Shown here: positions 20,508 through 25,359 of the stretch, piece by piece
How positions within the stretch are numbered: position 1 is the first letter of the stretch
How the letters are laid out: the number at the start of each line of letters is the position of its first letter
From: Treponema sp.
Lineage (GTDB): Bacteria; Spirochaetota; Spirochaetia; Treponematales; Treponemataceae
Length of the DNA: 41,179 bases
NCBI GenBank assembly: GCA_024682655.1
Contig: JAIKYZ010000076.1
Span: forward strand, 1 to 41,179
Direction: 5' to 3'
Made by a program: the position numbers and the translations under genes
Notes under the pieces: model-generated
Seen by the model: only the letters and a program-made list of their open reading frames with translations
The model's database searches: none
What the model was told of the DNA's origin: nothing

Positions 20508-20518
20508 ATTACTCACTT

Positions 20519-20604
20519 GCCGGGATGGCGGAATTGGTAGACGCCCAGGACTTAAAATCCTGTGTCGAGCGATCGACGTGCCAGTTCGATTCTGGTTCCC
20601 GGCA
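20519..20604 (+). tRNA. tRNA-Leu (anticodon TAA)
   Basis: Acceptor arm GCCGGGA (20519-20525) pairs with TCCCGGC (20597-20603), followed by discriminator A at 20604. The anticodon loop CTTAAAA gives anticodon TAA, reading UUA and UUG. A long variable arm (type II) and the T arm CCAGTTCGATTCTGG are present. The CCA end is not encoded. It is followed directly by a terminator. Confidence 0.96.
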
Positions 20605-20606
20605 TG

Positions 20607-22202: not shown

Positions 22203-23891
22203 TTATTTGTAATTCAAGGCAGAAACAACAGCCTTAATACCAGCTTTTCCTACGTTAGATGATTTACCAACGCCCCAGGCATCAGTTCCGTCTTCTTTTG
22301 TGATATGAACATAAGCCATAGCCTTAGTGTCTGCACCTTCGCCAATAGAATGTTCATGGAAAGAAACAAGATTGAATTTTGGAGCTGGAGTCTGTTTAAT
22401 TGCATTTACAAATGCATCCAAAGGTCCATTACCATTTCCTGCAACAGCATAATCTTTACCTTCCCAAGAAATTGTTGCAAGAACTGCAACCTGCTCTGAA
22501 TCCATATCAGCACAATCTGTAGCACCTTCAACATGTTTCTGAGTGATTTCTTTTAATTCCATTGGAGTTTTTGTATGTAACCAGGTTTCTTTAAATGCCT
22601 GATATACTTCTTCATTGGTAATTTCGCGCTGTAATTTATCGGCTGTGTTTTTAATAACAGAACCAATAAATGGATGCATAGCCTTTGGAGCTGCAATTCC
22701 ATAATCATGTTCAAGAATATAAGCGGCTCCACCCTTTCCAGACTGACTGTTGATACGAATAATACCTTCGTACTGACGTCCAATATCATGTGGATCGATT
22801 GTAAGATAAGGAACATCCCAAAGAGCATTTTCTTCCTGTTTAACTCTGGCAGCCATACCCTTTCTGATAGCATCCTGATGAGAACCAGAGAAGGCAGTAA
22901 ATACTAATTCACCGGCATAAGGTAAACGTGGAGGAATTTCCATTCCGGTAAATTTTGTATATTCTTCAGACAGGAAAGGAATATCAGACAAATCTAATTC
23001 TGGATCAACCCCCTGAGAGAACATATTCAAGCCAACATTTACAATATCAAGGTTTCCAGTACGTTCACCATTTCCAAAGAGACAGCCTTCTACACGGTCG
23101 GCCCCGGCAAGTAAACCAAGTTCACACTGGGCAACACCTTCGCCTCGGTCATTATGGTTATGTAAAGAAATAATTAAATTTTCGCGGTTAGAAATGTGCT
23201 GGCAGAAATATTCAATCTGATCTGCAAATTGATTTGGTAAAGCACATTCGACAGTTGTAGGAAGATTTAAGATGATTTTGTGATTTTCATCAGCGGCATG
23301 GCCCCATTCTTGTACAACGGCTTCGCAAACTTCTACAGCATAATCAATTTCTGTTGTAGAAAAAGATTCAGGAGAATATTCCAGACGGATATCTGTTCCC
23401 TGGCTCATAGAAAGACAAGATTTTACACAGCGAATACCATCAATTGCAATCTGTTTAATTTCTTCTTTTGATTTATTGAAAGTATATTTTCTCTGGGCTG
23501 GTGAAGTTGAATTGTAAAGGTGGAAAATTGCCTTTTTACAACCCTTTAAAGATTCAAAAGTTCTTTTAATTAATGGTTCACGGGCCTGACAAAGTACCTG
23601 TAAAGTAACATCATCTGGAACATGATTTTCTTCTACAAGACGGCGCATAAAGGTAAATTCTGTATCTGATGCAGAAGGGAATCCAACTTCAATTTCTTTA
23701 AAGCCGATTTTTACAAGAAGGTCAAAGAAAGCAAGTTTTTGTTCAACGCCCATTGGATTAATAAGGGCCTGATTTCCATCACGTAAATCAACAGAACACC
23801 AGATAGGTGCTTTTGTGATAGTTTTTGTTGGCCAAGTTCTATTAAAGGCTGGAACTGGCTCAAAAGGTTTGTACTTACCGTTTACTTTCAT
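22203..23891 (-). CDS. leuA: 2-isopropylmalate synthase (long form)
   Basis: Catalyses acetyl-CoA + 2-oxoisovalerate to 2-isopropylmalate, the first committed step of leucine synthesis. The ATG at 23891, with CAGGAG 6 bases upstream, gives 562 residues; the open frame up to 23954 only crosses the attenuator. The TIM-barrel domain has WCSVDLRDGNQAL (metal-binding Asp, about 32-44), FHLYNSTSPAQRKYTF, and SLHNHNDRGEGVAQ with the metal-binding HNH. PYAGELVFTAFSGSHQDAIRKG is typical of the long (yeast/actinobacterial-like) LeuA group. The C-terminal 130 residues are the regulatory domain that gives leucine feedback inhibition (SFHEHSIGEGADTKAMAYV). Transcription is controlled by the attenuator at 23932-24098. 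No other leu gene is adjacent. Confidence 0.95.
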   Translation of the reverse strand: MKVNGKYKPFEPVPAFNRTWPTKTITKAPIWCSVDLRDGNQALINPMGVEQKLAFFDLLVKIGFKEIEVGFPSASDTEFTFMRRLVEENHVPDDVTLQVLCQAREPLIKRTFESLKGCKKAIFHLYNSTSPAQRKYTFNKSKEEIKQIAIDGIRCVKSCLSMSQGTDIRLEYSPESFSTTEIDYAVEVCEAVVQEWGHAADENHKIILNLPTTVECALPNQFADQIEYFCQHISNRENLIISLHNHNDRGEGVAQCELGLLAGADRVEGCLFGNGERTGNLDIVNVGLNMFSQGVDPELDLSDIPFLSEEYTKFTGMEIPPRLPYAGELVFTAFSGSHQDAIRKGMAARVKQEENALWDVPYLTIDPHDIGRQYEGIIRINSQSGKGGAAYILEHDYGIAAPKAMHPFIGSVIKNTADKLQREITNEEVYQAFKETWLHTKTPMELKEITQKHVEGATDCADMDSEQVAVLATISWEGKDYAVAGNGNGPLDAFVNAIKQTPAPKFNLVSFHEHSIGEGADTKAMAYVHITKEDGTDAWGVGKSSNVGKAGIKAVVSALNYK

Positions 23892-23931: not shown

Positions 23932-23970
23932 ATAAAAAAAAGGACCCGCCGCATTTGCGACAGGTCCTTG
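23932..23970 (-). terminator. Attenuator terminator upstream of leuA
   Basis: On the minus strand GGACCTGTCGC (23958-23968) pairs with GCGGCGGGTCC (23943-23953), 11 base pairs counting two G-U pairs, with loop AAAT; flanking AA/TT extends the stem. Eight T follow (23934-23941). It lies 43 bases before the leuA ATG. Confidence 0.92.
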
Positions 23971-24015
23971 TAATTTCCTTAAATATAATTAAACACACTA
24001 CCCATCAAATACGGC
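23948..24015 (-). promoter_or_regulatory. leuA antiterminator pairing
   Basis: GCCGTATTTG (24006-24015), which begins at the last base of the leader stop codon, can pair over 10 bases (one G-U) with CAAATGCGGC (23948-23957), the loop and 3' arm of the terminator. The two structures exclude each other. A ribosome at the leader stop would cover the first arm and let the terminator form; a ribosome stalled at the Leu codons would leave it free. Confidence 0.8.
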
Positions 24016-24062
24016 TATTTAGAGAAGATTGAAGATAGTAGTAGTAGGTTCATGTGTTTCAT
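24015..24062 (-). CDS. leuL: leuA leader peptide with four consecutive Leu codons
   Basis: A 15-residue frame, MKHMNLLLLSSIFSK, from ATG 24062 to TAG 24015. Four consecutive CTA codons (24036-24047) read leucine; CTA is scarce in the other genes of this window, where TTA, CTT and CTG dominate, so it would be a sensitive probe of charged tRNA-Leu. The peptide lies between a strong promoter and a terminator ahead of leuA. There is no Shine-Dalgarno site and the predicted transcription start is at or next to the ATG, so translation is probably leaderless. The peptide itself has no other expected role. Confidence 0.9.
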   Translation of the reverse strand: MKHMNLLLLSSIFSK

Positions 24063-24069
24063 AAATACT

Positions 24070-24098
24070 AAAGTAATTTACTTTTACTAAAATGTCAA
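24070..24098 (-). promoter_or_regulatory. Promoter of the leuA leader
   Basis: A perfect TTGACA (24093-24098), 17-base spacer, TACTTT (24070-24075). The ATG of the leader peptide starts 7 bases after the -10 box. It sits 9 bases past the stop codon of argD. Confidence 0.75.
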
Positions 24099-24106
24099 TC
24101 CTCAAA

Positions 24107-25276
24107 TTAACAGAAAGATTCAAGAACTGATTTAAATATTTCAAGACCTTCGTCAATTTCTTTGTCTGAAATAACTAATGGTGGAAGGAATCTTACAACA
24201 TCGGCACCAGCTGTAGTTGTACAAAGTCCATTTTCCAGACATTTTACTTCAACGTCAAAAGGTTTTACTTTTGGATCTAACTGAGTACCAATCATAAGAC
24301 CTTTACCACGAATGTCTTTTACAATTGGAAGATTCCAGCTGGAAATTTTACCGCGGATATAATCGCCGGCGTGATTTACTCTGTCCAAAAATTCTGGGTC
24401 AGCCACTGTTTCTAAAACTACCAGACCTGCTGAACAGGCCAGTGGATTTCCTGCAAAAGTAGACTGATGATCTCCTGCGACAAAAACATCTGCAGCCTTA
24501 CCGCGGAATAAACAGGCTCCCATTGGAACTCCAGCAGCAATTCCCTTAGCTAAAGTAACAACTTCTGGATTAATTCCAAGCCATTCAGAAGCAAGGAAAG
24601 TACCTGTACGACCAACTCCAGTCTGAACTTCATCGCACATAACAATTGCACCAGCGGCACGGGCAGCATCGGCAGCGGCTTTAGCCCATTCTGGATCTAG
24701 AAGATTTACTCCACCTTCACCCTGAATACATTCAATAAAAAGAGCGGCAGTAGTATCATCAAAAGCCTTTTTAAGGCCTTCAAAATCATTTGCTTTGATT
24801 GTTTTAAAACCCTGTGGATAAGGAGCAAAACAATCTGGATGGAATTTATCCTGGCCAGTTGCTGTTAAAGTAGCTAAAGTTCTACCATGGAAAGAAGATT
24901 CCAGAGTTACAATAGTTTTTCTTTTATCTCCGCCATTTAACTGACCGTATTTTCTTGCAAGTTTAATTGCGGCTTCGTTTGCTTCTGCCCCGGAATTTCC
25001 AAAATAGGCGTGCTGGAAATTTGTGATTTTTAATAAGTTCTGAGCAAAATCAATACCAACATCAGAAAAAAAGTAGTTAGAAATATGGATTTGACGGCTT
25101 GCCTGACGAGATAAAGCCTTTACAAGTGGTTTATAGGCGTGTCCCAGACAATTAACACCAATACCGGCAATAAAATCAATGTACTTTTTGCCTTTTACAT
25201 CCCACATTGTTGCACCCTTGCCTTTTGCAAAGGTAACATCAAAAGAACCATAATTATTTACGACAAGTTTTTCCAT
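24107..25276 (-). CDS. argD: Acetylornithine aminotransferase family protein
   Basis: A class III PLP aminotransferase that would convert N-acetylglutamate semialdehyde to N-acetylornithine in arginine synthesis. The ATG at 25276, with AAAGGAG 6 bases upstream, gives 389 residues, close to the family norm of about 400; the frame's extension to 25354 crosses the operator region. Motifs: YFGNSGAEANEAAIKLAR (PLP phosphate-binding), SSFHGRT, MCDEVQTGVGRTG (Asp over the pyridine ring) and TLAKGIAAGVPMG with the PLP Lys. Ornithine, succinylornithine and GABA aminotransferases look alike, but length, the opening YGSFDVTFAKGKGATMWD and ARG-box-like operators favour ArgD. It precedes leuA on the same strand, yet leuA has its own promoter. 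Confidence 0.9.
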   Translation of the reverse strand: MEKLVVNNYGSFDVTFAKGKGATMWDVKGKKYIDFIAGIGVNCLGHAYKPLVKALSRQASRQIHISNYFFSDVGIDFAQNLLKITNFQHAYFGNSGAEANEAAIKLARKYGQLNGGDKRKTIVTLESSFHGRTLATLTATGQDKFHPDCFAPYPQGFKTIKANDFEGLKKAFDDTTAALFIECIQGEGGVNLLDPEWAKAAADAARAAGAIVMCDEVQTGVGRTGTFLASEWLGINPEVVTLAKGIAAGVPMGACLFRGKAADVFVAGDHQSTFAGNPLACSAGLVVLETVADPEFLDRVNHAGDYIRGKISSWNLPIVKDIRGKGLMIGTQLDPKVKPFDVEVKCLENGLCTTTAGADVVRFLPPLVISDKEIDEGLEIFKSVLESFC

Positions 25277-25298
25277 AATTAACTCCTTTTTCGTAAAA

Positions 25299-25353
25299 TG
25301 TATAAATATACAATTATTATGGTGATTTTTGCATATAATTGCAATAATTTGCA
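25299..25353 (-). promoter_or_regulatory. ARG-box-like operators and promoter of argD
   Basis: TGTATATTTATACA (25299-25312, minus strand) is an exact match to the ArgR consensus core TGNATWWWWATNCA. Two weaker copies, TGCAATTATATGCA (25330-25343) and TGCAAATTATTGCA (25340-25353), overlap by 4 bases. A promoter TTGCAA (about 25338-25343), 17 bases, CATAAT would lie among them, so an ArgR-type repressor could cover both the -35 box and the start site. That ArgR acts here is inferred; no argR gene is in the window. Confidence 0.6.
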
Positions 25354-25359
25354 TAAAAA

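Follow-up and report, generated by a model that had tools for sequence, protein, structure and literature searches.

A predicted ribosome-mediated leucine attenuator upstream of leuA in Treponema and sister leaders with other sensor codons

Classical attenuation is a textbook mechanism in Proteobacteria and has also been described in Actinobacteria and some Firmicutes. The leaderless leader peptides leuL1/leuL2, trpL1, and ilvL of Streptomyces lividans have been mapped (PMC8079986), as has the leaderless leader peptide of ilvB in Corynebacterium diphtheriae (PMC5784534). S. lividans leuL1 has no typical intrinsic terminator (PMC8079986), and the actinobacterial LEU element has been described as a pseudoknot (PMC1262725). 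The uORFC-13-1 motif before aroF in Acholeplasma combines an aromatic leader, in which a U-run codes for Phe, with a terminator and an RBS (PMC8632094), and His leader peptides precede hisS/hisZ in bacilli (PMC2965389). An earlier note on the DNA studied here knew of no such case in Treponema, and we likewise found no description of leader-peptide attenuation in this genus in the open-access literature searched.

Herein, we analyzed a 41,179-nucleotide stretch of Treponema sp. DNA (the window), in which leuA on the minus strand is preceded by a short Leu-rich leader (Table 1). As judged from its sequence and from folding models, the leader very probably controls transcription by ribosome-mediated attenuation in response to charged leucyl-tRNA, and from the same evidence we infer that leuA would respond to leucine. 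The TTGACA promoter and the 15-codon peptide with four CTA codons had been read in the earlier note and were confirmed letter for letter, the codons being ATG AAA CAC ATG AAC CTA CTA CTA CTA TCT TCA ATC TTC TCT AAA TAG. The identity of the downstream gene also held, and this leuA is of the PRK03739/yeast type. Its start was placed at 23891, behind AGGAG at 23902-23898 and 42 nt from the end of the terminator; the start at 23954 in the longest-ORF listing was rejected. The analysis adds to the earlier reading a probable leaderless start, a protector hairpin, the UUCUC motif, and related leaders in front of other operons.

Table 1. Features of the leuA leader and its neighbors in the window
Feature	Position	Strand	Evidence or remark
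-35 box TTGACA	24098-24093	(-)	sequence
-10 box TACTTT	24075-24070	(-)	sequence; 17-nt spacer from -35 box
Leader peptide ORF MKHMNLLLLSSIFSK	24015..24062	(-)	15 codons + TAG; Leu-rich homologues in 70 relatives
Sensor codons CTA x4 (Leu)	24047-24036	(-)	sequence; CTA bias in relatives
UUCUC motif	24022..24026	(-)	conserved in leuA leaders
Segment 1, 5' strand of protector hairpin	24044..24060	(-)	extends into Leu codons
Segment 2, antiterminator arm GCCGTATTTGATGGGT	24000..24015	(-)	16 nt; begins at stop codon
3' strand of protector hairpin GGGTAGTGTGTTT	23991..24003	(-)	overlaps 3' end of arm
Segment 3, antiterminator partner ACCTGTCGCAAATGCGGC	23948..23965	(-)	terminator 5' strand + loop + inner 3' strand
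Intrinsic terminator	23934..23969	(-)	stem 23969-23940 (13 bp), tetraloop, U8 23941-23934
leuA, 2-isopropylmalate synthase, 562 aa	22203..23891	(-)	NF002991, 791.6 bits
argD-like transaminase, upstream neighbor	24107..25354	(-)	context, outside the switch

An Rfam scan of the window revealed no cis-regulatory family (T-box or other riboswitch) at gathering score; the best family below it was RF00512 Leu_leader, with 29.8 bits and an E value of 1.4e-4 against a threshold of 50 bits. Like E. coli leuL (RF00512), the locus has a Leu leader, a terminator, and a competing antiterminator before leuA, and it behaves in the same way in the folding model. However, the Treponema leader has no Shine-Dalgarno (SD) sequence, its leuA is of a different type, and its UUCUC motif is missing from E. 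coli leuL, as it is from trpL, hisL, and thrL. With the actinobacterial leaderless attenuators it shares a short leader ORF before amino-acid genes, the leaderless transcript being mapped in Actinobacteria and predicted in Treponema, and the actinobacterial leader MRFGLLLLSCRGEGL is similar in plan to that of the window; the Treponema leader differs in its strong terminator, classical 1-2-3-4 pairing, and UUCUC. The His leaders of bacilli are likewise a case of attenuation beyond Proteobacteria and Actinobacteria, but they belong to Firmicutes and precede different genes. The mechanism class is old; what is new is, as far as can be told, the phylum, and further the spread over pathways and UUCUC.

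In the proposed mechanism, transcription would start at or beside the leader ATG, and a ribosome would initiate at the 5' end without an SD sequence and then read the CTA run. When leucyl-tRNA is short, the ribosome would stall on the CTA run and block segment 1, leaving segment 2 free to pair with the emerging segment 3, so that the terminator would come too late and leuA would be transcribed. When leucyl-tRNA is ample, the ribosome would reach the stop codon and cover segment 2, and the terminator would form. With no ribosome on the leader, the 1:2 hairpin would compete for segment 2, favoring termination.

The pairing segments were found where the earlier note had placed them. The core arm GCCGTATTTG (24015-24006), said to begin at the stop codon, has the last base of TAG as its first base, and its core partner CAAATGCGGC (23957-23948), said to lie inside the terminator, occupies the terminator loop and inner 3' strand and forms 10 pairs with the arm, one of them G-U. 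Because the arm extension GATGGGT (24006-24000) also pairs with ACCTGTC on the 5' strand of the terminator, the antiterminator of the window reaches approximately 16 bp (-21.2 kcal/mol). It is mutually exclusive with the terminator, whose eight U had also been noted correctly. In most elements a protector hairpin is formed by the start of the leader ORF and the segment directly behind the arm. The leader fold of the window had a z score of -5.2, and none of 200 shuffles was as good.

The earlier note had named conservation of the Leu codons and the pairing arms as its check, and both are conserved in dozens of Treponema species, the arms by compensatory change. Across elements, single arm positions show G-C, C-G, A-U, and U-A pairs. 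The duplex between arm and terminator had a mean of -18.9 kcal/mol for own pairs, compared with -15.5 kcal/mol with the arms of other species. For 46 non-redundant elements, the gapless arm helix score was 17.1, whereas it was 13.6 +- 0.41 when arms were permuted among species (a permutation control, not a phylogenetic one), and no permuted set matched the real score in 300 trials. The terminator, strong in the window, is conserved across relatives, and both-side changes occur in 8 of the 9 pairs of its consensus stem.

To follow the effect of ribosome position, we folded the RNA co-transcriptionally, at the lengths reached during terminator synthesis, because attenuators do not decide at full-length equilibrium. 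The ribosome was represented by a mask covering 18 nt upstream and 10 nt downstream of the A-site codon, a crude approximation, and only RNA energies enter the model. When the mask sat on the Leu codons, the arm captured terminator sequence in all 68 elements; when it sat on the stop codon, the antiterminator appeared in 0-1 of the 68. Under stricter limits, 93% of the real elements switched, compared with 14% with shuffled arms and 66% with arms swapped between species. The same simulation gave the same switching pattern for the proven attenuators of E. coli leuL, trpL, hisL, and thrL. The logic of stalling and completion set out in the earlier note thus works in the folding model: in silico, a stall at the sensor codons is predicted to free the arm and a ribosome at the stop codon to cover it. 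In full-length equilibrium folding, which was rejected as a display of the switch, the terminator prevailed in the majority of elements, whether or not a ribosome was stalled on the leader, and E. coli leuL showed the same fading of the antiterminator in the simulation. Since equilibrium favors the terminator, the decision must be made kinetically, which is also the accepted view for E. coli. For the window element without a ribosome, a transient antiterminator appeared at intermediate lengths, indicating that termination without translation may be leaky.

Transcription by sigma-70 normally starts 6-8 nt behind the -10 box. The -10 box of the window ends 7 nt before the leader ATG, which places the likely transcript start at or beside the ATG. 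This gap was 6-8 nt in 65 of 69 elements, and nearly all relatives have TTGAC at the corresponding position, separated from the -10 box by a 17-bp spacer. SD-like 4-mers preceded 11 of the 69 leader ATGs (four of them in the clade described below), compared with 63 of 69 leuA starts. The -10 spacing and the scarcity of SD sequences suggest that the leuA leader is probably leaderless. The four elements without the 6-8 nt gap (L038, L040, L043, and L045) belong to one clade, and L039 resembles them. In this clade the leader follows an upstream coding region and carries SD-like sequence but no promoter of its own, which offers a natural comparison for the leaderless form. A promoter-pattern search with a 17-bp spacer found the leuA leader as its only leader peptide. 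A leaderless start would raise the question of how the ribosome can load at the 5' end early enough for coupling to RNA polymerase.

The argD-like gene ends 8 nt before the promoter, and the terminator is strong, as would be expected if it were a plain terminator of the argD transcript, accompanied by a chance ORF and with no regulation. However, a promoter separates argD from the terminator, the element persists where the sequence upstream is different, and the Leu run, arms, and spacing are conserved, which makes this explanation extremely unlikely. Because argD lies directly upstream, the SD-less leader may nevertheless also occur on read-through transcripts.

A Leu-rich leader, an arm, and a terminator were present in 72 of 82 distinct Treponema or other spirochaete leuA upstream regions. 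Automatic parsing for a Leu-rich ORF with a terminator behind it recognized 70 of them, and two more (L039 and L053) were plain by eye; the other 10 did not have the element. The carriers include the cultured relatives Treponema ruminis (L063) and T. porcinum (L068). The leuA relatives from named genomes belong to Treponema or other spirochaetes, except for three from Verrucomicrobia. The peptides of the 70 relatives have in common a M-x3-6 start and the Leu run. CTA made up 53% of the leader Leu codons, compared with 3.1% in the 25 genes of the window, a 17-fold difference for this rare codon, and with 0.7% of the Leu codons in the leuA genes that these leaders precede. The sole tRNA gene of the window, at 20518-20605, is a tRNA-Leu(TAA), which by wobble rules reads TTA/TTG and not the sensor codon CTA.

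A covariance model built from the leuA leaders, R1, also matched leaders of two other types, namely MTEIRLHLHHHLFSA with His codons upstream of hisG (genus g5) and MKNITYAYYYYYYSHKSCRVLAK with Tyr codons upstream of DAHP synthase, and the identities of these downstream genes were confirmed. Leaders with Tyr/Phe/Trp codons are widespread upstream of DAHP synthase in the genus. Like uORFC-13-1, they combine an aromatic leader with a terminator before DAHP synthase, but uORFC-13-1 belongs to a different phylum and has U-run Phe codons and an RBS, and UUCUC is not mentioned for it. Some DAHP synthase leaders (among L153, L158-L160, and L209-L236) have a Trp early on and a Tyr/Phe/Trp cluster further along, an arrangement that would fit the reading of more than one aromatic amino acid. 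The genome of the window itself carries a second attenuator candidate, MKFNFLVKIATHLVLVVSR with a terminator before ilvB on contig C51 (L339, G000:C51:70700-71700), which switches in the folding model; similar ilvB leaders occur in L342, L345, L346, and L348. In the leaders before DAHP synthase, hisG, and ilvB, the sensor codons fit the amino acids of their own pathway. His leaders of the form MTE(I/T/L)RLH.H.HL.SA with UUCUC precede hisG in a related genus (L151, L154, and L155). For hisG and trpE in this genus, no terminator-linked leader was found, and none that was convincing was found for the fused homoserine dehydrogenase in 10 genomes.

The exchange of sensor codons bears on whether the leader might be an arrest peptide, in which the nascent chain stalls the ribosome on free leucine. 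The leader peptide is short and hydrophobic and its Leu run is conserved, as would suit such a role. However, the peptides diverge freely outside the Leu run and vary in length and stop position, the rare codon CTA is preferred, and the sister leaders replace the Leu run with Tyr/Phe/Trp or His, fitting the gene. We therefore regard arrest by the peptide as highly unlikely and favor codons that sense leucyl-tRNA.

The motif UUCUC follows the sensor codons in 64 of the 70 leuA leaders, at nt 31-38, against a chance rate of 8.7% by shuffling, a post hoc figure for a motif first spotted by reading the sequences. It was also present in 19 of 21 aromatic leaders and 3 of 3 His leaders, mostly directly behind the sensor codons and up to nt 99, and in 2 of 5 ilvB leaders. 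Its reading frames in the leuA leaders (18/14/32) rule out a codon constraint, and no fixed base flanks it there. A paired element was rejected, as the complement occurred in 0 of 69 leader 5' ends, 3 of 69 middles, and 0 of 69 terminators; nor does the motif keep a constant spacing to the transcript start, from which it lies 31-38 nt in leuA leaders and up to 99 nt in aromatic leaders. An unpaired motif in any frame, shared by leaders of different specificity, could be the site of a protein that drives attenuation, with the leader peptide secondary. But the sensor codons change with the pathway, and UUCUC alone cannot supply specificity because the same motif precedes genes with different amino-acid signals, so that control by such a protein is very improbable. 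Within ribosome-mediated attenuation, our guess is that UUCUC is a polymerase pause or factor site. It is possible, though on balance doubtful, that it is a new attenuator part independent of the amino acid, for instance, a polymerase pause that needs no hairpin, or a factor-binding site, just behind the sensor codons, so that polymerase and the first ribosome on a leaderless message would come together there. If so, the family would represent a spirochaete type of attenuation in its own right, with a synchronizer encoded in the sequence. As a motif found in every frame, UUCUC is a concrete candidate for a previously undescribed attenuator part.

The leaders are spread over several genera within a single spirochaete family, and their sensor codons vary to suit the pathway. 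R1 matched in 6 of 83 genera in the order, all within that family, and its absence elsewhere is weak evidence because the model was tuned to Treponema leuA. In the genome of the window, the R1 matches besides leuA were weak, and the two that were inspected had no leader peptide. Outside the family, R1 gave three weak matches across the phylum, of which L362 and L363 look spurious and one is real: in another spirochaete family, a long Ile/Leu leader MKKNTLKKIYNHLKLPVIKNTAVIIIILFLLLLFFT with a terminator precedes ilvD (L361:250-420). The verrucomicrobial leuA upstream regions L079 and L080 have common Leu-rich ORFs ending in CTCCCCTAGGGGGATTA, which look like a different leucine leader.
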